DNA of 43,755 nucleotides from contig JAQBNI010000078.1 in assembly GCA_028288625.1 (NCBI GenBank), positions 1-43,755 on the forward strand. Direction: 5' to 3'. The stretch comes from Bacteroidota bacterium (GTDB lineage: Bacteria > Bacteroidota > Bacteroidia > Chitinophagales > JADIYW01). The notes beneath the pieces were generated by a model that had not been told where the DNA came from, did no database searches, and saw only the letters and a list, made by a program, of their open reading frames with translations. The translations under genes were made by a program, and so were the position numbers. This document shows, piece after piece, positions 28,251 to 37,648 of this stretch; the first letter of the stretch is position 1, and the number at the start of each line of letters is the position of its first letter.

Positions 28251-28571
28251 TTACTCCGACATATACAATTTATCCTCTTCAATTTTAAAGTGATAGTGCG
28301 CGATCTTATAATTATTCCCGTCTGCGCTTCTCCCTGTTTTAATATCAAATTTATAGCCGTGTAGGGGGCAGCTTACTACGCCCCGCCTATTGCAATGCCC
28401 ATGATGTAGTAGTGCTCCCGCATGCGGGCAGGTATCTTGAATTCCGAAGAAACCGTCTTCCAGTCGTGTAATACAGATTACTTTCTCATCCACAGTTAAT
28501 TTTGCCAGTTGGAATAAATGGATCTTCTCAAAAGCAATTTTCAAATCATCGGAAAGCGCTCTCCATTGCAT
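28251..28571 (-). CDS. Rieske [2Fe-2S] protein, NirD-like
   Basis: Small soluble Rieske ferredoxin-type protein, 106 aa. The cluster ligands are Cys48 and His50 in DTCPHAG, and Cys68 and His71 in SCPLHGYKFD, separated by the typical ~17 residues. The fold resembles the nitrite reductase small subunit and dioxygenase ferredoxins, but no reductase or oxygenase gene is adjacent, so its electron partner is unknown. It lies upstream of murF-alr on the same strand. It has no signal peptide. Confidence 0.88.
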   Translation of the reverse strand: MQWRALSDDLKIAFEKIHLFQLAKLTVDEKVICITRLEDGFFGIQDTCPHAGALLHHGHCNRRGVVSCPLHGYKFDIKTGRSADGNNYKIAHYHFKIEEDKLYMSE

Positions 28572-28690
28572 ATTGTTGGTTCTGGTAACGAAGATAATAT
28601 TTCTTCTAAGAATAGAACGCGGCAGATGAATAGTTAAAGAATGAGTTAAAATGATTGAATTTTTTTACATTAGTATTAAAATCAACAGCT

Positions 28691-29389
28691 ATGAAAAAAA
28701 TATTCGTTATGGCAGGTGCAGTAATTATTTTTACTTCCTGCAACCAGAAACCAACAACTTCTTCCACTTCGGAAACCGCAGCCACGAAAACTACTGAAAC
28801 TTCGTCCTCTGCAGCTCCCAAGGGTCAATACGAGTTTAAGTCGGGTATACTCGAGGCTGAAACAATAATGCCGGGAGGTATGGGCACTACAACGATGAAA
28901 ATTACTTTTGACGATTATGGTAAACTAAAAGTTACAGAAACAAATATGGCAATGTCAATGGGTGGACATCATATGAACACTACATCTAAATCGCTGGTTA
29001 AAGACGATTATATATATAGCTGGTCAAGCGCGTCTAAAGCAGGAATGAAATTTAAAATGGATCCTTCCAGGATGGATCCTAAGAAGGATATGGACTTCTC
29101 TAAGATGACGGATGAAATGAAAGCAAAATTACACATGCAGGAGGTAGGTAACGAAACGATAGACGGAAAAGATTGCAAGGTGTTTACTTACGAAGCTGAA
29201 ACAATGAAAGGAAAAATGTGGATATGGAAACAGCTTCCGTTACAATCTGAAATGACCATCTCAGGTAAAACGATCACAACAAAATATAAGAGTTTCCGGG
29301 AAAATCCGAGTATTCCGGCAGGCACTTTTGATGTTCCGTCAGATATTGAATTTAAAGAAATGAATTTACCGGCGACGGCATCTAAGTAA
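28691..29389 (+). CDS. Lipoprotein, DUF4412-like
   Basis: Exported lipoprotein of 232 aa with Cys17 (VIIFTSC) followed by a Ser/Thr-rich spacer (about 20-45). The mature domain (KGQYEFKSGILEAETIMPGG ... DGKDCKVFTYEAETMKGKMW ... LPLQSEMT) resembles DUF4412-type outer-membrane lipoprotein domains of Bacteroidota, where a reporter of ligand or lipid binding has been suggested but no function is settled. It is unusually rich in Met and His (MAMSMGGHHMN, KMDPSRMDPKKDMDFSKM), so metal binding is possible. ATG 28691 is preferred over an upstream in-frame ATG at 28655. Its end overlaps the convergent aminotransferase by eight bases. Confidence 0.7.
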   Translation: MKKIFVMAGAVIIFTSCNQKPTTSSTSETAATKTTETSSSAAPKGQYEFKSGILEAETIMPGGMGTTTMKITFDDYGKLKVTETNMAMSMGGHHMNTTSKSLVKDDYIYSWSSASKAGMKFKMDPSRMDPKKDMDFSKMTDEMKAKLHMQEVGNETIDGKDCKVFTYEAETMKGKMWIWKQLPLQSEMTISGKTITTKYKSFRENPSIPAGTFDVPSDIEFKEMNLPATASK

Positions 29390-30497
29390 TCGATTCTTTG
29401 ATACAGTTAGCCAGGTTTCTTAAGCCTTGCTGCAATTCTTCTTCATTCGGATACCCGAAGCCGATACGCATATAGCGGTCATCCTGTTCAAACCAATGAC
29501 CTGCGCCAACAAGTGTTTTATATTTTTCATAAAGCACAGCATAAAACTTTGCGGTATCAATTGCAAATTGTTTTTTGATGCGTGGAAAGCAAACAACTCC
29601 GGCTTTGGGCTCTATCCATTCAAAATATTTCTGCTCATTTTCCATCCAGTTTTTAAGAACGGAAAAATTTTGTTGAATATGCTGATGCGAAGGCGATAAA
29701 AATTGTTGCGCATTTTTTAAAATATGCAGCGCGATCTCTTCATCAATGACAGAATTGGTGATGATGATCTGTTCCTTTGCGGCAAGTAGATCTATCTGCA
29801 GTTTACGATGTTTACAAATCAGCCATCCCACGCGAATTCCCGGAACACCGAAAGCTTTCGATAGAGAGCACACCGAGATCACGTGATCAGAAAATGAAGC
29901 GTAATAGGGAATAAGCTCTGTTTGAAAATTCAGGTAGCGATAAGTTTCATCCACCAATACAAAAATATTTTTCTCTTCTGCAATACTTATAATTTCTTTG
30001 ATCAATTCATCTTTAAAAATAATTCCTGTGGGATTATGAGGCGAAGTGATACTGATGAGTTTAGTCTGCGGCTGAATGGCATCCTTGATTTGTTGAATAT
30101 CGAATTGAAATTCATTTTCAAACGATAGATCTATATACGAAATATCACATCCGATTGCTTTTGGTGTTTCAATATTCGTCGCATAATTGGGACGAAGTAC
30201 AATTAAGTGATCGTCCTTATTCAGCATTATTGTAGAAACAATAAACAATGCGGTTGCCGCGCTCGGACAAACAAGAACATCCCCTTCACTTAAATTTTTC
30301 TCATCTCTTATAATCTCTTCTCTCAAATCTTTCTTGCCGCGATGTTCTCCATAACAAATAAATACATCATCTAAATTTATTTTCAGATCACGAAAATAAA
30401 TATCACGGACAGAGCTTTCCGCTAAGTTAAATTGAATAGTATCATAACCCATTTCTTCAGGAGATTCAACTTCTATGGGCATTCGTTTGTACTTCAT
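29382..30497 (-). CDS. PLP-dependent class I/II aminotransferase
   Basis: Fold-type I aminotransferase, 371 aa, cytoplasmic. Key residues are visible: Asn155 in SPHNPTG, Asp183 and Tyr186 in LVDETYRYL, the PLP Lys214 in SLSKAFGVPGIRVGW, and a C-terminal Arg in DRYMRIGFG. The overall sequence is nearer to capreomycidine-synthase/MalY-like branches than to aspartate aminotransferases, but the substrate cannot be assigned. It is the last gene of a minus-strand operon, 14 bp after a beta-helix lipoprotein gene. This is an odd partner for secreted proteins and may reflect only positional linkage. Confidence 0.85.
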   Translation of the reverse strand: MKYKRMPIEVESPEEMGYDTIQFNLAESSVRDIYFRDLKINLDDVFICYGEHRGKKDLREEIIRDEKNLSEGDVLVCPSAATALFIVSTIMLNKDDHLIVLRPNYATNIETPKAIGCDISYIDLSFENEFQFDIQQIKDAIQPQTKLISITSPHNPTGIIFKDELIKEIISIAEEKNIFVLVDETYRYLNFQTELIPYYASFSDHVISVCSLSKAFGVPGIRVGWLICKHRKLQIDLLAAKEQIIITNSVIDEEIALHILKNAQQFLSPSHQHIQQNFSVLKNWMENEQKYFEWIEPKAGVVCFPRIKKQFAIDTAKFYAVLYEKYKTLVGAGHWFEQDDRYMRIGFGYPNEEELQQGLRNLANCIKESIT

Positions 30498-30511
30498 AAA
30501 TTATGCTATAA

Positions 30512-31750
30512 TTAATTCCCGCTGCCGGTAATATGGTTGATGCTGCAATCAAAAGCAACTGAGTTGTTGTCGTACGTTTTCAAAACATGCTCGATCACCG
30601 GAGACTGATATGCATTCAGGTTAAAGAATTTAATTTTGCCGTTATTCGAAAAACAAGACCTGTATTGCGCTTTTAAACTACCATCGGCGTTGCTCATCTC
30701 TTTGGAATAATTGTTATCGTAAATAATATCTGCAGGAGATTTTGACATCGCTAATATCAATCTTCCAAGATCCGAACTCAGATCAGGCACCAATAATAAT
30801 TTCCGTGTGAAAATATTATCATGAATAAATATGGAAGTACAGTACGGCGTAAACAAAGAGTCGTTGATAGGTCTTCCCGTTGCCTGGTAGCTCACTGCGC
30901 AGCAACCTAAAGTTTTGTTATTGATGAAAGTATTTTTAAAAACTTCTACACTGTCATACGACATAATGATCAGTCCGCTTCCCGGCGGAATATCTGAAAC
31001 ATAACTTCCCGGTTTTGCAAAATTTTTTGAATTGTTGGCTTCTACCTTATTGTTGAACACCCTGCAATTCTTACCGTCTTTCAAGGGTAAGCCGGGAAGG
31101 TCATAAACGACGATGCCGCCGCTGTTGTGGTAGGAATAATTATTGTATACATCCGAATTGATACAATTTTCAATCTCAATGCCGCATACATTTTGGTGTG
31201 CAACACAATTCCTGATCGTTACGCCAATGGATTGACCGACATAAATGCCGGCATCGGCACAATAAGAAACCTCGCACCTTTCAATCAACACATTTTTACA
31301 TGCAACGGGGTAGTAACCGTAATTCCCGTTGGCAGAATCCGTGCCGGTGGTCCAGGTGGAATTCATATCTCTTATCGCCACATTATTACAATCCTTTAAT
31401 TTTATATTATCTCCTTTCGCATCCTGGATCGTAAATCCTTCAATAGAAATATTATTGCAATTGGTGATGTTGATGCCTTCTGCGCCATCGGTTTGTCCGA
31501 GAAATGATAGTATGGTTTTACCTGTTCCTTTTCCGCGAATGATCACATTATTTTTTCCTTCGAGTGATAAGGTCTTGCTGAATAAAAAATGTCCTTCGGG
31601 TAATTCTATTACGCCGCTGTCTTCGAGCAAAATAAATTTCTCCTGGAATTCATTTTCTATTTTTTTGTTTTTTATAAACTGGGAAGATGAATTTTGCCTG
31701 CATGAGGACAGCAACATTGTGATAATGAAAATGACAGAAAATATTCTCAT
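30512..31750 (-). CDS. Parallel beta-helix lipoprotein (copy B)
   Basis: Exported lipoprotein of 412 aa; Cys17 in MLLSSC is the lipobox. The body is a right-handed parallel beta-helix with repeated N-rich turns (NISIEGFTIQDAKGDNIKLK, NVLIERCEVSYCADAGIYVG, IGVTIRNCVAHQNVCGIEIE). Such folds bind or cleave polysaccharides or act as surface scaffolds. It is closely similar to the other beta-helix protein at 32834-34108, sharing long blocks such as NSTWTTG and NGNYGYYPV. It lies 16 bp after the di-heme cytochrome gene. I recall a family pairing beta-helix proteins with this cytochrome type (TIGR03805/TIGR03806); the function is unknown. Confidence 0.85.
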   Translation of the reverse strand: MRIFSVIFIITMLLSSCRQNSSSQFIKNKKIENEFQEKFILLEDSGVIELPEGHFLFSKTLSLEGKNNVIIRGKGTGKTILSFLGQTDGAEGINITNCNNISIEGFTIQDAKGDNIKLKDCNNVAIRDMNSTWTTGTDSANGNYGYYPVACKNVLIERCEVSYCADAGIYVGQSIGVTIRNCVAHQNVCGIEIENCINSDVYNNYSYHNSGGIVVYDLPGLPLKDGKNCRVFNNKVEANNSKNFAKPGSYVSDIPPGSGLIIMSYDSVEVFKNTFINNKTLGCCAVSYQATGRPINDSLFTPYCTSIFIHDNIFTRKLLLVPDLSSDLGRLILAMSKSPADIIYDNNYSKEMSNADGSLKAQYRSCFSNNGKIKFFNLNAYQSPVIEHVLKTYDNNSVAFDCSINHITGSGN

Positions 31751-31766
31751 GTATTTGATTGAAGAA

Positions 31767-32837
31767 TTATTTCATTTCTGCGATCCATTGTTTGATCAGT
31801 GCAACGGCTTCCACATGAATTAAGCGCCTGCCTAATTCGGGCATCATGATCTCTGGGTCAGCGCTGTTCATACGGTAAGGTAAAATTGATTCTTCCGGTT
31901 TTCCCGGCACAACATCGTACAATGAATTTCCGCTCGCTCTGCCAGCTGCAACAGGGCTTTTCATCACACCCCAGCTTTCGGGGTTCTTTTCACTCAGCAA
32001 TAAATACAAGCCGGAAGTATTTGCCGGACCTTCCTTGCGATGGCAGTTGGAACAGTTTACTTCGAGATATGCTTTTGCTCTTTCTTCTACCGTGCCTGTT
32101 GTTGGATCATCCCATTGCGCTAATTTATTTGTTTTGTTATCTGCTTTGTTATAACCTGTGAGGTAGCCAACTTCTCTCCATTTATCCAGTTGATTTTTTT
32201 TGCCTTCAGCATAGATAACATCGCGGTTCATATTCCTGATCTTTGGTCCGATCGGAATTAAAGTTTCATTAAAACTATGACATCCCTTGCATTGATTTTT
32301 ATTCGGGATGAGAAAATTAGTATGATTTTGCACACCATGCGCATTTATCCAGTCTACTTTTTTATCATCGCCCACAATATTCAATGTGCCTTCTGTCTGA
32401 TCATCATTCCATTCGTAATCCAAAGCATCCCATTTATCTTTCCTTCGCACCAGCAATCGCGTCTCTAAGATCTTTCTTCCTTTTGCGTCATCGCGGAAAT
32501 CATTTGAATAATAAAAGTTCTTAATCAAAACTGTTCCTACCGGGAAATCAAGCGCTGCTGTTTTATTATATTTTGCGGAAGTTCCTTCAGGCATCCACAC
32601 GAAACGCGCTTTCTTTGCGTAATCGGAAAATAAAGTGGTGATGAGATCATAAGGCAATACCTTGTCGTTCGGAATAAGATCCTTAAGATTTCCTTTAAAG
32701 AAATGATACTCGGATAATTTCTCAAACGGTTTTGCATCAACATCTACTGTGACTTTGCCATTGGAAATTTTACACTGATTGAAAATGACCAGGCACGTAA
32801 AAGAGATTATAAAAAGAGAGATCGTTAGTTTTTTCAT
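31767..32837 (-). CDS. Di-heme c-type cytochrome, SO2930/HNE_0200-like
   Basis: Exported 356-aa protein with two c-heme motifs, Cys183-Lys-Gly-Cys186-His187 and Cys262-Ser-Asn-Cys265-His266, and a Met-rich PEIMMPELG (Met331/332) that could supply an axial ligand. The N-terminus is hydrophobic (LTISLFIISFTCLVIF) followed by NQC, a weak lipobox, so it is either a lipoprotein or periplasmic. The upstream 170 residues form an unassigned domain (WMPEGTSAKYNKT, RLLVRRKDKWDALDYEWNDD). The start ATG overlaps the stop of the preceding beta-helix gene (ATGA), implying translational coupling. It matches my memory of the family always paired with beta-helix proteins. Confidence 0.87.
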   Translation of the reverse strand: MKKLTISLFIISFTCLVIFNQCKISNGKVTVDVDAKPFEKLSEYHFFKGNLKDLIPNDKVLPYDLITTLFSDYAKKARFVWMPEGTSAKYNKTAALDFPVGTVLIKNFYYSNDFRDDAKGRKILETRLLVRRKDKWDALDYEWNDDQTEGTLNIVGDDKKVDWINAHGVQNHTNFLIPNKNQCKGCHSFNETLIPIGPKIRNMNRDVIYAEGKKNQLDKWREVGYLTGYNKADNKTNKLAQWDDPTTGTVEERAKAYLEVNCSNCHRKEGPANTSGLYLLLSEKNPESWGVMKSPVAAGRASGNSLYDVVPGKPEESILPYRMNSADPEIMMPELGRRLIHVEAVALIKQWIAEMK

Positions 32838-34108
32838 TTTGCATCCGAGGGTTTTAATCCATTGCCGTTGATACCTGTATAAGCGCAGTCGAACTTAGTC
32901 ATGTCATTGTCTTTATATTTCATAATATCTTCCCTGCCGTGCGTTTTCCATCCATTTAGATTGCCGAATTTCACATCGCCGTTGTTGCGTATGCAGATCT
33001 TTTTTCCTTCCGGCAGTTGTCCGTCTTTATCGCGGAGTTTCGGATCGGCAGTTCCATCCACAAAAATATCCAACGGACCTTTAAAAGTTGCCGCGAGTAA
33101 TTTGCCGAGATCGGTAGAAAGATCAGGAATAGAAAACTTTCTCACAAAAATATTATCGTGAATAAATATCGACGTACAATAAGGACCGTAAGTGGTGTCG
33201 TTCAATTGCTTGCCCGTCATATAATAACTTACTGCAGCAACACCGATAGTTTTATTGTCAGTGATCCTGTTATTAAATACATCAACGCTGTCTGTTGCCA
33301 TAATGATCATACCGCTCCCCGGCGGTATCATTGCCACAATACTTGCAGGTTTCCCGAAATTCTGAAAGTTATTCGTGATGCAGTCGTTATCCCATACTTT
33401 TGCATTTCGCCCGTTTGCCTGGAATAATTTTGGAAGATCAAAAATGAGAATACCGCCTGAATTATTTTCAGAACGGTTTTTGTAAATATCTGAGTTGATG
33501 CAATTTTCAATTTCGATTCCCGCAACATTGTTATGTGCGTAACAATGCCGAACGGTTACGTTTGTAGATTGACCGATGTAAATTCCTGCATCCGCGCAAT
33601 AAGACACTTCACAATTTTCTATCAATACATTTTTACATTCCACAGGATAATAACCGTAATTCCCATTGGAAGTATCAGCACCCGTAGTCCAGGTAGAGTT
33701 CATGTTTCGGATAGTTACGGTATCGCAATCTTTTAATTTTAAATTATCGCCCTTTGCATCCTGTATGGTAAAACCTTCCACGGTAATATTAGAACAATTC
33801 GTAACACTGATGCCTTCAGCGCCATCCGTTTGTCCGTAGAAGGAAAGAAAGGATTGCTGAGCTCCGGCGCCTTTTAACGTTACATGCTTCTTGCCTTCCA
33901 GCGAGAGTGATTTTTTAAGAAGGTACTTTCCCGCGGGAATTTCCACCGTACCACCATCTTCCACTAAGATCAATTGCTCCTGCAAGCTTTTCTGAAATTT
34001 TTCGGAAGATTCAAAGCCTTCTGTATTTCCTTTCTTCTTAGAAGATTTACAGCCTGACACACTCACCATAACCATAGCGGTTATAAAGAACAAAAAGAAT
34101 TTATGCAT
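32834..34108 (-). CDS. Parallel beta-helix lipoprotein (copy A), first gene of operon
   Basis: Exported lipoprotein of 424 aa; Cys20 in VSVSGC is the lipobox, followed by a Lys-rich spacer (KSSKKKG). The beta-helix repeats are clear (NITVEGFTIQDAKGDNLKLK, NVLIENCEVSYCADAGIYIG, TNVTVRHCYAHNNVAGIEIE). It is a paralogue of copy B, most similar through the central helix (for example DGAEGI, NMNSTWTTGA, PPGSGMIIM, YCTSIFIHDNIF). It overlaps the cytochrome gene by four bases. No -7 consensus is evident in the 178-bp divergent gap before it. It is predicted to sit on the outer membrane; substrate unknown. Confidence 0.85.
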   Translation of the reverse strand: MHKFFLFFITAMVMVSVSGCKSSKKKGNTEGFESSEKFQKSLQEQLILVEDGGTVEIPAGKYLLKKSLSLEGKKHVTLKGAGAQQSFLSFYGQTDGAEGISVTNCSNITVEGFTIQDAKGDNLKLKDCDTVTIRNMNSTWTTGADTSNGNYGYYPVECKNVLIENCEVSYCADAGIYIGQSTNVTVRHCYAHNNVAGIEIENCINSDIYKNRSENNSGGILIFDLPKLFQANGRNAKVWDNDCITNNFQNFGKPASIVAMIPPGSGMIIMATDSVDVFNNRITDNKTIGVAAVSYYMTGKQLNDTTYGPYCTSIFIHDNIFVRKFSIPDLSTDLGKLLAATFKGPLDIFVDGTADPKLRDKDGQLPEGKKICIRNNGDVKFGNLNGWKTHGREDIMKYKDNDMTKFDCAYTGINGNGLKPSDAK

Positions 34109-34286: not shown

Positions 34287-36062
34287 ATGTTGAAGAAATC
34301 AGGTTTTATTTGGATAGTTGTGGCATTAGCCTTGTCTCTATCCGGTTGCAGGGGCAACAAAGGTTCTAACAAAGTATATAAAGACCAGGTCGTGGTGCAC
34401 GGCTTGTCAGATGCAAAAGGCTTAAACCCTATTACGACGAGTGATGCCTATGCAAACGAATATATCATTCCAAACATTTTCCAGAGCTTACTTTCTTACA
34501 ATCACCAGACAATGGAATTGGTGCCTGTTCTTGCAAAATCAAGACCTGTGATGAGGCTCAATGGCGATGTTGCAGAAATGGATTTTGAATTGCGTCCGGA
34601 AGCTACATGGGATGATGGAACACCTGTAACTGTTGATGATATTTTATTTTCTTTCAAAACTATTTTTTGTCCGAAAGTAAATAATGATAACGTGAAGCCC
34701 GGCGTGGATTATGTAAAGGATGTAAGAACGTACCCTGATAACAACAGGAAATTTACCGTGGTCTGCAGCAAATATATTGGCATGGAACATGGTGTTGGTT
34801 ATGATGTTAAGATGATGCCTGAGAACGTGTACGATCCGAAAAAAGTATTGCGTAAATATTCGTTAGCAAGTTTAATTTCCGGCGATAAGAAAGCGGAAAG
34901 CGATCCGGACATTAAAACTTTTGCAGAATTTTTTAATTCTGAAAAAGTAGCACGCGACAGTTCACTCGTGAAAGGATCAGGTGCATACAGATTAATTTCT
35001 TTTGAAACCGGTCAGCGGCTAATTATTGAGCGCAAGCCGAATTGGTGGGGTGATAAAGTGAACAAGGAAAATGAATATTTTGAGGCATACCCGAAACGAC
35101 TCGTCTTTGAAACAATCAATGACTTTAATACTGCGCTCACGGCGCTCGTTGATGAGAAACTCGATTTCATTTATGTAACCCCTGTGAAGGAATATGTGGA
35201 ACTGGATAACTCTCCCAAATTCCGGGAGAACTTTGTAAAATCAGAACCACAGATGCTGGCGTACCAGGCGATCGGCATGAACGTAAAAGATAAGATACTA
35301 AAAGATGTAAAAGTGCGACAAGCACTATGTTACCTTACGAATGTAGACCAGATCATCGATAAAGTATTATACGGAAAAGGAAAACGCACCATCGGTCCGG
35401 TCTTGCCTTCTAATAAGGACGCTTATAACAACGATATTAAGCCATATCCTTTCGATGTAGCGAAAGCGAAATCATTATTGGCAGAAGCAGGCTGGGCGGA
35501 TTCTGACGGCGACGGCATTTTAGATAAAGTAATAGACGGCGAAAAAACAAAGTTTGAAATTTCATACAGCTATAATGCCGGAAATCCCTTAAGAGAAACT
35601 GTGGGACTTTTGATCCAGCAAACGTATAAACAAGCCGGACTTATTTTAAATATCAAGGCGCTCGACTGGAGCTTGTATCTTGATGAATTAAAGAAACATA
35701 ATTTCCAGTTATTTTACCAGGGTTGGGTGAAACAGCCACGACCGGATGATGACAAGCAGATCTTCCATACTTCTTCTATGAACGGCGGTTCGAATTATAT
35801 GAGTTTCGGAGATGCAAGAACTGATGCATTGCTGGAGCAGATCAGAACAGAACTCGACGAATCAAAAAGAAATGTGCTCTACAAACAATGGCAACAGATC
35901 ACACACGATGAAGTACCTTATATTTTCATGTACGTGCAGAATTTCAGGAACTGCGTTCACAAAAGATTTGAAAATACCAAAGCCGGTCCCGTTTATCCAG
36001 GTGTATGGTTTGCCGCTTTCAAAGTGAAAAAAGGATATAAAGTAGAAGGCAGAGATAAATAA
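34287..36062 (+). CDS. Oligopeptide-type ABC transporter substrate-binding lipoprotein
   Basis: Solute-binding protein of the SBP_bac_5 (OppA/DppA) class, 591 aa, tethered to the membrane by Cys21 (LSLSGC). Family features include an N-terminal GLSDAKGLNPITTSDAYANE, VDDILFSFKTI, VKGSGAYRLISFETGQRLII, NPNWWGDK-like KPNWWGDK, VRQALCYLTNVDQIIDKVLYG and AKSLLAEAGW. A DSDGDGILDK loop after AEAGW resembles an EF-hand-like calcium site, as often found here in this family. The ligand is probably a peptide but is not certain. An intrinsic terminator follows at 36082, and the permease genes start from a separate promoter. Confidence 0.88.
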   Translation: MLKKSGFIWIVVALALSLSGCRGNKGSNKVYKDQVVVHGLSDAKGLNPITTSDAYANEYIIPNIFQSLLSYNHQTMELVPVLAKSRPVMRLNGDVAEMDFELRPEATWDDGTPVTVDDILFSFKTIFCPKVNNDNVKPGVDYVKDVRTYPDNNRKFTVVCSKYIGMEHGVGYDVKMMPENVYDPKKVLRKYSLASLISGDKKAESDPDIKTFAEFFNSEKVARDSSLVKGSGAYRLISFETGQRLIIERKPNWWGDKVNKENEYFEAYPKRLVFETINDFNTALTALVDEKLDFIYVTPVKEYVELDNSPKFRENFVKSEPQMLAYQAIGMNVKDKILKDVKVRQALCYLTNVDQIIDKVLYGKGKRTIGPVLPSNKDAYNNDIKPYPFDVAKAKSLLAEAGWADSDGDGILDKVIDGEKTKFEISYSYNAGNPLRETVGLLIQQTYKQAGLILNIKALDWSLYLDELKKHNFQLFYQGWVKQPRPDDDKQIFHTSSMNGGSNYMSFGDARTDALLEQIRTELDESKRNVLYKQWQQITHDEVPYIFMYVQNFRNCVHKRFENTKAGPVYPGVWFAAFKVKKGYKVEGRDK

Positions 36063-36081
36063 TAATTTATTTATAAGATTT

Positions 36082-36111
36082 AAGCCCGCACCTGTTGCGG
36101 GCTTTTTCTTT
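36082..36111 (+). terminator. Intrinsic terminator after the binding-protein gene
   Basis: AAGCCCGCA (36082-36090) pairs with TGCGGGCTT (36096-36104) around loop CCTGT, followed by a T-rich run. This is the clearest GC-rich terminator in the window. Confidence 0.92.
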
Positions 36112-36171
36112 TTAAATGCCTGGCGTAGTTCTAAAAAACCATAAAACACGTGAAATAATCAACTAAAATTG

Positions 36172-36179
36172 TATTTTTG
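36172..36179 (+). promoter_or_regulatory. -7 box (TATTTTTG) for the permease operon
   Basis: Exact TAnnTTTG match 47 bases before ATG 36227, after the terminator of the binding-protein gene. It implies that the permeases are transcribed separately. Confidence 0.5.
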
Positions 36180-36226
36180 AAAAGAGCTGCAGATGCCTTG
36201 AGAAGAAAATCTAAAGAGATACAAAC

Positions 36227-37648
36227 ATGCTGAAATACGTTTTAAAACGCATTGCCATATTCATTCCAACATTATTTGTTATTTCCTTAATTACATTTTA
36301 TTTAAGCGTGAATGTTCCCGGTGATCCTGTGGAGCAAATGCTGAACAACAACAGCGATCTCGGCAGCTCTGCAAATGCGCAGGCTTCGGAAAGGGCATAC
36401 GTTGATAAAAGAGCACAGCTGGGATTAGATCTTCCTCTTTTTTATTTCAGTTTGGGAAATGCAGCAGAACCCAAAAATTTGTATGAAGTACCGAAGAAGT
36501 TTCACCGCCAGAATTTAGAAAGACTTATTGATAAATACGGTGACTGGACGGAGATCAGAAAATATTATCAATCGCTTAAAGATTTTGAAGTGGCGATCGC
36601 AGGTATTCCGCGGGATTCCGCAAACGCAGATGCGCTGATCAACATCAAGGGCAACATCCAGAAATTATACATCAGCTATGATGATAACGCGATCAGATCG
36701 GATTTTAAAGAAATAACTCCTGCTATTAATGAGCACGCGTCACTTCAACTCGCCCGTCCCGCGTACCAGGCGGTTCTGGATGATTATGAAAAAGGTGTGA
36801 AAGGAAAAGCGACACCGATGAAAAAGTATATTCCCGCATTGCATTGGTATGGGTTGAATAATCAATATCATCAATGGATCACAAAATTTATGAAAGGAGA
36901 TTTCGGAATTTCCTACCAGGATCAGCGACCTGTAAAAACGGTGATCTGGGAAGCGGTTCACTGGACGGTGATGCTCAGCATTTTTTCCATCATCCTCACC
37001 TATTTAATTTCAATTCCATTAGGTATAAAAGCGGCAGCAAAAAAAGACAGCCGGAGAGATAAGATCATGTCGACCATTTTATTCATGCTGTATTCGTTGC
37101 CGGTATTCTGGGTGGCAACATTGCTGATCATGTTCCTGGGCGGCGGAGATTTCTTAAGCTGGTTCCCGGCATATGGTGTTGGTGAGATCAGCAGTGATGA
37201 TAATTTCTTTCAAATTTTTGGCATACGCTTTTATCATCTCGTTTTACCGATGATCTGTTTCACGTATGGTGGATTAGCCTTTTTATACAGGCAGATGCGC
37301 GGTGCTATGATCAACACACTCACACAGGATTACATACGTACCGCGCGTGCGAAGGGGCTTGATGAAAACAAAATATTATGGAAGCACGCGTTTAAAAATT
37401 CGCTGCTGCCGATCATCACTTTATTTGCAAATGTTTTTCCATTGATCATCAGCGGAGCGATCATCATCGAAAATAAATTTTCCATTCCCGGGATGGGAAA
37501 AACTGCGATAGAAGCAATACATGCGCGGAATTACCCCATGATCTATACGATCGTGATGTTTTCTGCGATCCTGACGATGATCGGTTATCTCATCGCGGAT
37601 ATTTTATATGCAATGGTGGATCCGAGAATATCCTACAGTAAAAAATAA
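36227..37648 (+). CDS. ABC transporter permease, DppB/OppB type, enlarged
   Basis: Inner-membrane permease subunit, 473 aa versus about 310-340 for DppB. The N-terminus (MLKYVLKRIAIFIPTLFVIS, then VNVPGDPVEQML) and QLGLDLPLFYF are standard. About 130 extra residues (77-205) are then inserted, on the periplasmic side by topology, before WITKFMKGDFGISY and the remaining membrane helices. The EAA loop that contacts the ATPase is present (YIRTARAKGLDENKILWKHA), as is IENKFSIPGMG. The insert has no recognised motif and looks helical. It is followed five bases later by the DppC-type gene. No ATPase gene is in the window. Confidence 0.9.
   Translation: MLKYVLKRIAIFIPTLFVISLITFYLSVNVPGDPVEQMLNNNSDLGSSANAQASERAYVDKRAQLGLDLPLFYFSLGNAAEPKNLYEVPKKFHRQNLERLIDKYGDWTEIRKYYQSLKDFEVAIAGIPRDSANADALINIKGNIQKLYISYDDNAIRSDFKEITPAINEHASLQLARPAYQAVLDDYEKGVKGKATPMKKYIPALHWYGLNNQYHQWITKFMKGDFGISYQDQRPVKTVIWEAVHWTVMLSIFSIILTYLISIPLGIKAAAKKDSRRDKIMSTILFMLYSLPVFWVATLLIMFLGGGDFLSWFPAYGVGEISSDDNFFQIFGIRFYHLVLPMICFTYGGLAFLYRQMRGAMINTLTQDYIRTARAKGLDENKILWKHAFKNSLLPIITLFANVFPLIISGAIIIENKFSIPGMGKTAIEAIHARNYPMIYTIVMFSAILTMIGYLIADILYAMVDPRISYSKK

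Follow-up and report, generated by a model that had tools for sequence, protein, structure and literature searches.

What brings a gene for a right-handed beta-helix protein next to one for a di-heme cytochrome, and what could the two products do together? The question is raised by a contig of a Bacteroidota bacterium (JAQBNI010000078.1, assembly GCA_028288625.1), analysed over its full 43,755 nucleotides (hereafter the window). Four minus-strand genes follow each other in it, encoding a TIGR03805 beta-helix protein (BH1), a TIGR03806 cytochrome, a second TIGR03805 protein (BH2) and a pyridoxal phosphate (PLP) enzyme of the aminotransferase type. An earlier note on this DNA had suggested that all four belong to one system, possibly for electron transfer at the surface or redox modification of a polysaccharide. 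Our data show that the core consists of two genes, the TIGR03805 beta-helix and the TIGR03806 cytochrome, which form a conserved pair and are also found fused. Because of this conservation, the fusion and the swapping of partners described below, the two are very likely a functional unit.

Pairing and partner exchange

Pairing was followed in a phylum sample of 392 Bacteroidota genomes, in a close-relative sample of 60 genomes (own genome included) and in named loci from a genome scan that gave at least 585 confirmed stretches, of which the best 80, from several phyla, were kept; labels G### denote genomes and L### the loci examined. With the curated NCBIfam cut-offs (141.5 bits for TIGR03805, 313.3 bits for TIGR03806), the phylum sample has the beta-helix in 27 genomes and the cytochrome in 23, and every cytochrome genome also has the beta-helix (23/23). 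By coordinates the two genes are adjacent in 19 of the 23, the others being G071, G090, G185 and G243. Relatives of the cytochrome below its cut-off, counted at E ≤ 1e-30, occur in 18 further genomes, among which only G188 has TIGR03805 over cut-off. G188 is one of four genomes with the beta-helix and no cytochrome over cut-off (the others are G428, G056 and G420); in G188 and G428 a CCP_MauG gene stands directly before the beta-helix. The close relatives give the same picture: the cytochrome passes its cut-off in 31 genomes and the beta-helix in 33, with both in 30 of the 31, and the relative with the cytochrome only (G039) has a beta-helix fragment at a contig end.

Among the best 80 named loci the beta-helix lies within 300 bases of the cytochrome in 60, at 1.2 kb in one and in the same frame in one; of the others, five have the cytochrome at a contig edge, 12 lack a beta-helix in the locus and one has no usable gene call. 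Adjacent pairs are found in loci titled, for instance, Saprospiraceae, Isosphaeraceae (L121), Bryobacterales (L138, L141), Kordiimonas (L150) and Neomarinimicrobiota (L154). The fusion (1/80) comes from L118, Ca. Binatia, where a TIGR03805-type beta-helix and the cytochrome share a single 824-residue frame with a proline-rich linker. That the two families occur together had been stated in the earlier note; co-occurrence, adjacency and the natural fusion bear this out, and the neighbourhood analysis shows that the pairing is not sporadic.

Both members of the pair can be found with other partners. Of seven long cytochrome proteins, four were scanned (L176, L209, one of L211, and L212), and all four contain a GSDH domain (PQQ-type sugar dehydrogenase; PQQ, pyrroloquinoline quinone). 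In these fusions the diheme module is the same, down to its invariant residues, but GSDH takes the place of the beta-helix and the cytochrome scores are lower (173–203 bits). L076 has GSDH as a gene of its own after the cytochrome. In Flavobacteria-type loci the next gene encodes a secreted protein, with FG-GAP repeats, UnbV_ASPIC and a type IX secretion tail in 3/3 scanned; loci L198, L203 and L206 have this order of cytochrome and type IX-secreted FG-GAP/UnbV_ASPIC protein. The beta-helix, for its part, is naturally fused to a CCP_MauG diheme domain in G307 (L253:2686-4980, plus strand) and directly preceded by a CCP_MauG gene in L250:6748-15092 and L251:8163-10884 (both plus strand); in L250 a LytTR-domain gene stands before CCP_MauG, and a TonB receptor and a SusD-like gene after the beta-helix. 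MauG and the di-heme cytochrome c peroxidases (PF03150) are thus diheme proteins able to partner the same beta-helix family, but they belong to a separate family of heme proteins. PF03150 does not list the window cytochrome at E ≤ 10, although it lists 6/65 of the cytochrome's relatives (best E 0.16). Two cytochromes in tandem were seen in L201:8617-10918, and in L101, L165 and L167 a cytochrome without adjacent beta-helix is followed by SCO1-like and AhpC-like genes.

Clusters of cytochrome and beta-helix were found in 76 of 99 loci, and the next largest neighbour cluster, short-chain dehydrogenases, in 11 of 99 at scattered positions. Neighbours that serve an argument were named by Pfam: GH88 appears three times in 58 of the 82 upstream genes, and 61 of the 93 downstream genes include three sulfatases, three 3-keto-disaccharide hydrolases and two SCO1 proteins. 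Only some lineages have a sugar context. In L120 (7067-8785, plus strand) a 572-aa protein with no Pfam match at E ≤ 1e-5 is encoded between a GH88 gene and the beta-helix, and similar genes occur in L132 and L134.

The first heme domain and the beta-helix face

The AlphaFold2 model of the window cytochrome (pLDDT 93.3, pTM 0.89) has its residues from about 28 to 233 placed by VIA-align on the c'-beta/P460 fold. The ten best rows run from Z 7.4 to 5.2 and the next one has Z 3.6; 7s5o comes first (Z 7.4, 124 residues, 3.6 Å), followed by 7ead (6.5), 9hqt and 7zqz (6.2) and P460 entries (5.6–5.2), all in the range below Z 8 where, by the tool's own warning, a match may reflect a common arrangement. 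Since the fold scores were weak and Foldseek gave a null result, the likeness was tested by sequence, with Bacteroidota PF16694 proteins as the partner in profile comparison. Whole alignments matched at 95.8%, and the domain only at 91.7% with a score of 46.1. Cutting the heme motif from both sides left a score of 33.8. None of 40 column shuffles exceeded 13.8, the reversed profile reached 12.2, and the beta-helix family, taken as an unrelated control, 21.1; speaking against the likeness, the C-terminal domain scored 24.8 over 13 columns. Among sub-class profiles, short K-type P460s reached 93% and the pooled K set 91%. Profile similarity to P460/c'-beta therefore extends beyond the heme motif, though it is weak with two sub-class profiles. 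The PF16694 model lists 22/65 cytochrome relatives at E ≤ 10 (best E 0.0054), and a PDB sequence search with the cytochrome alignment gave six matches, all with E 0.6 or worse. From model and profiles together, a P460-like heme 1 domain is probable rather than proven, and because of the weak sub-class matches and the Pfam miss on the window protein we do not file it as a member of the P460/c'-beta family. The heme 2 domain is an ordinary cytochrome c. What is new here is that the N-terminal heme domain of the cytochrome resembles P460/c'-beta in predicted fold and in profile comparison.

Five P460 profiles share one register with the cytochrome, with the CxxCH motifs aligned. In all five, K106 (in FPVGTVLIK) falls on the position that holds K in P460-type and F in c'-beta-type proteins, and in McP460 (chain 6hiu) the matching lysine is residue 78 by count. 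A P460/c'-beta review (PMC11928373) gives the cross-link lysine as Lys78 in McP460; two further P460s have Lys70 and Lys106 in that role, and two c'-beta proteins have Phe61 at this position. K106, the lysine at the P460 cross-link position, is invariant in the conservation set of 137 distinct cytochromes (118 beta-helix-type, 12 Flavobacteria-type and 7 long fusions), as are K76, R78, P83, F108, E125, R127 and both heme motifs; Met332, the likely sixth ligand of heme 2, is present in 136 of the 137, with a gap in one. Both the McP460-like profile and the pooled K profile have an Arg where the cytochrome has R78, at the position of McP460 Arg50, which the same review describes as the cap; the distal carboxylate of P460s is named there as Asp102 or Glu96 (PMC11928373). 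The cytochrome has no proton-accepting carboxylate at that position, and the invariant Glu125 sits two residues before it. NsP460 likewise does without a distal carboxylate (Ala131), and natural intermediates are described, according to the review (PMC11928373). By alignment, the pocket carries the P460 lysine but not the carboxylate at the aligned place, and K106 could, as a prediction, be cross-linked to the porphyrin. In summary, P460/c'-beta proteins (PF16694) and the window cytochrome share a predicted beta-rich heme domain that ends in a c-heme motif, the lysine at the cross-link position and the Arg at the McP460 cap position, but they differ in very low sequence similarity, in the missing Pfam listing and the Arg at the carboxylate position, and in the second cytochrome c domain and the beta-helix partner of the window protein.

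In the model of the L118 fusion the beta-helix is confident and the remainder is not (mean pLDDT 75, pTM 0.56). The best fold matches of this beta-helix are the A-modules of AlgE6 and AlgE4, with Z 33.7 and 33.6 over about 300 residues at 21–22% identity (5lw3: Z 33.7, 299 residues, 2.6 Å); an alginate epimerase/lyase (32.9), RbmB (30.7) and many others including NosD (26–30) follow. The likeness to a right-handed beta-helix of the AlgE A-module type was thus established with the L118 model rather than with BH1 itself. The likeness to AlgE4/AlgE6 and alginate epimerase/lyase (2pyg, 5lw3, 8ja4) is one of fold; unlike them, the beta-helix has a heme partner. When the PDB was searched with a profile of the beta-helix alignment, seven sequences matched at E ≤ 1, namely three phage appendage proteins, RbmB, a pectinesterase, an alpha-1,3-glucanase and a myosin; no AlgE chain was among them.

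PB1 is the face on which beta-helix enzymes of this kind usually carry their active site. On the long PB1-type strands or at their ends Y151, Y154, D173, Y177, Q180, E199, E201, N202 and N216 are invariant in the 98 sequences used for the beta-helix tree and conservation (98/98). The MauG-partnered beta-helices retain D173, E199, E201, N202, N216, N246 and N250 and are without D121 and K124, and therefore these last two residues may face the P460-like partner. From the modelled fold we infer that the beta-helix holds a carbohydrate. A TIGR03805-like copy without heme neighbour in G056 (L252:17381-18652, minus strand) has Phe in place of Y151 and Y177.

What the pair may do

Taken together, these features can be read as an extracytoplasmic two-subunit redox system in which heme 1 oxidises the substrate and heme 2 relays the electrons, a reading that we judge evenly balanced between right and wrong. 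The beta-helix would hold, and perhaps deprotonate, a carbohydrate-type substrate; heme 1 would be the oxidising centre, in a polar pocket with a lysine as potential cross-link to the porphyrin; heme 2 would pass the electrons on; and in this genus the second beta-helix would be kept perhaps for a second substrate. The redox and polysaccharide role proposed in the earlier note fits the folds and the partners. In a narrower form of the reading, which we find doubtful, TIGR03806 would be a new branch of the P460-type enzymes: its first heme, cross-linked to a lysine, would oxidise a polyuronate-like glycan or its sugar acid bound by the AlgE-like beta-helix, while the second heme exports electrons. 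The whole would then be a heme-based carbohydrate dehydrogenase outside the cell whose substrate modules (beta-helix, GSDH domain, FG-GAP/ASPIC protein) can be exchanged.

Several results weigh against reading the pair as a P460-like oxidase of carbohydrates. All P460/c'-beta fold matches of the cytochrome are below Z 8, Foldseek alone found nothing under E 0.001 for its model, and the Pfam PF16694 model does not list the window cytochrome at E ≤ 10. In the profile comparison, 30 profiles that kept the true heme tail but had their body shuffled scored up to 36.9 versus the real 46.1, and the McP460-like and c'-beta-like sets alone gave 12% and 4.5%. An invariant Arg127 occupies the P460 distal-carboxylate position in all profiles covering it. 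The L118 fusion model yields no confident interface between beta-helix and cytochrome (pTM 0.56), and no heme neighbour was seen for the low-scoring TIGR03805 beta-helices of G056 and G420. The MauG/peroxidase-type partner suggests that electron flow could be reversed, and sugar-related neighbours are a minority, with at most 3/58 and 3/61 per hydrolase family. Finally, no tested function for the TIGR03805/TIGR03806 pair was found in the literature, where our search did not find TIGR03806 or the product names of the two families and found TIGR03805 in two papers. SO_2930 and SO_2931 are listed as outer-membrane/extracellular cytochromes, and other passages present SO_2931 as a diheme outer-membrane cytochrome and connect it with Fe/Mn oxide reduction; no function for SO_2930 is given in the passages concerned (PMC5829830, PMC10986466, PMC12175506, PMC4837345, PMC5955497 and PMC5357785).

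The exchange of partners also allows the reverse relation, in which a diheme protein oxidises residues of the beta-helix, e.g. Tyr or Trp, into a protein-derived cofactor, as MauG and MbnH do with residues of their partners. The fused (L253) and adjacent (L250, L251) MauG-type proteins speak for such maturation, and so do Y151 and Y177, invariant in the 98 sequences, kept in the MauG-linked copies and replaced by Phe in L252b, which has no heme neighbour; L252a, however, also without heme neighbour, keeps both Tyr, W140 is lost in L253, and the GSDH fusions would not obviously need maturation, so that we consider it unlikely. We put the same low probability on the idea that heme 1 binds or turns over a small ligand (NO, peroxide or hydroxylamine) with the beta-helix as scaffold or surface tether. 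It would suit a P460/c'-beta-like domain, since hydroxylamine is oxidised by P460 and gas binding has been proposed for c'-beta (PMC11928373), but where hydroxylamine oxidation requires a carboxylate the cytochrome has Arg127, and the strict coupling to an AlgE-like beta-helix and the GSDH fusions would be left unexplained.

Plain electron transfer at the outer membrane or cell surface, the beta-helix being an anchor, agrees with the listing of SO_2930/SO_2931 as outer-membrane/extracellular proteins and of SO_2931 with Fe/Mn oxide reduction in the passages of the sources above; invariant pocket residues beyond the heme ligands (137/137) point to chemistry, however, and together with the invariant polar face of the beta-helix they make this quite improbable. 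NosD serves N2O reductase maturation, and a NosD-like beta-helix could accordingly handle metal, with the cytochrome supplying redox for copper or iron. Pfam NosD scores, NosD structures among the fold matches (Z 28.3) and SCO1-type neighbours (2/61) are in line with that, but the match to AlgE-type enzymes is closer (Z 33.7), the neighbour families of at least four loci include no NosF/NosY-like ABC partner, and we hold the metal role to be very unlikely. Least credible, and scarcely so at all, is a four-gene operon for surface-polysaccharide modification that includes the aminotransferase: the packing in the window is tight and the linkage recurs in G003 and G006, but elsewhere the aminotransferase is absent or unlinked.

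If the P460-like assignment is true, a heme type that the review describes from proteobacteria and the nitrogen cycle (PMC11928373) would also exist in Bacteroidota, Planctomycetota and Acidobacteriota, where it would go with carbohydrate-type proteins. By its own statement the review draws its sequences from proteobacteria, and no mention of diheme, fused or Bacteroidota proteins was found in it (PMC11928373). Candidate residues can now be named: K106, R78, E125 and R127 of the cytochrome and D173, E199 and E201 of the beta-helix.

The cluster in the window and its local features

The four tightly packed minus-strand genes that the earlier note had described are confirmed by the open reading frames (Table 1): BH1 and the cytochrome overlap by 4 bp, and the next gaps are 16 and 14 bp. 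Tight packing and curated-model scores make the cluster far more than chance. As the note had also said, both heme motifs are present in the cytochrome and the two beta-helices are paralogues with lipoprotein features, their lipoboxes looking canonical by eye (VSGC in BH1, LSSC in BH2); the cytochrome has a Cys after a hydrophobic segment, but its lipobox, FNQC, is non-canonical by eye. At E ≤ 0.001 no further TIGR03805 or TIGR03806 gene was found in the own genome.

Table 1. Positions of the four genes and of the cytochrome's domains and motifs in the window
Feature	Position	Strand	Details and basis
BH1, TIGR03805 right-handed beta-helix, probable lipoprotein, usual upstream partner	32834-34108	-	424 aa; 318.1 bits vs cut-off 141.5
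Diheme cytochrome, TIGR03806 'SO2930 family diheme c-type cytochrome'	31767-32837	-	356 aa; 384.3 bits vs cut-off 313.3
P460/c'-beta-like heme domain of cytochrome, residues 30-235 (probable)	32133-32750	-	VIA-align fold rows; profile comparison with controls
K106 codon, P460 heme-cross-link lysine position	32520-32522	-	one register in five P460 profiles; 137/137
Heme 1 motif CKGCH, residues 183-187	32277-32291	-	sequence; 137/137 conserved; aligned on P460 motif
C-terminal cytochrome c domain, residues 236-356	31770-32132	-	AlphaFold2 model and sequence; weak Pfam cytochrome c matches
Heme 2 motif CSNCH, residues 262-266	32040-32054	-	sequence; 137/137 conserved
BH2, second TIGR03805 beta-helix, paralogue kept in this genus	30512-31750	-	412 aa; 320.0 bits; own clade, support 1.0
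PLP enzyme (GntC/VioD-like, below cut-offs), judged outside the system	29382-30497	-	371 aa; Pfam Aminotran_1_2

Compared with the TIGR03805/TIGR03806 pair known as the SO2930 family, the window is typical in having both genes over their curated cut-offs, adjacent and in the usual order, but it adds the downstream second beta-helix and the PLP enzyme, neither of which was seen beside the pair outside this genus. The flanking duplicate is real in the window, as had been noticed, but it is a local feature: a downstream second beta-helix occurs in the window, G002, G003, G004 and G006, was not seen in G001 or G005, and in G007 the contig ends within the cytochrome. The tree of 98 beta-helices unites the downstream copies in a single clade (support 1.0), and the genus' upstream copies form a separate one (1.0) that joins the G010 copy first, with weak support (0.65); the duplication may therefore be slightly older than the genus.

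The aminotransferase had been counted as part of the system, which we reject, judging it to be a neighbour that moves independently. Its orthologue (at least 48% identity) is present in 6/60 relatives, own genome included, and stands beside the pair solely in G000, G003 and G006, all of one genus, while in G007, G010 and G019 it is present away from the pair; in G007 (L249) it keeps the lipoprotein/Rieske/murF-side flank without the pair. In the phylum sample it occurs in two genomes, the own one and G180, where it is unlinked (pair on C45, aminotransferase on C23). The expectation that it would never be linked in other genomes, which would speak against its membership, nearly holds: the linkage recurs in G003 and G006, and none was seen outside the genus. 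Its best NCBIfam models are GntC, PRK07324 and VioD, and the best 25 of 96 matches are all below cut-offs; it scores 224.9 bits versus 415 for GntC and 180.7 versus 390.9 for VioD. The best solved relative of the PLP enzyme is 8fft.

At its far end the cluster converges on a small gene at 28655 with an 8-bp overlap; the stretch 28251-29389 holds genes for a small Rieske protein and a small lipoprotein-like protein, the latter overlapping the aminotransferase end by 8 bp. On the other side the cluster is divergent from an oligopeptide-type ABC binding-protein gene at 34287. The binding-protein and permease genes of this type (34287-37648, plus strand) adjoin the pair in related genomes too, and in L082 the binding-protein gene of the same ABC cluster is placed upstream within the operon.

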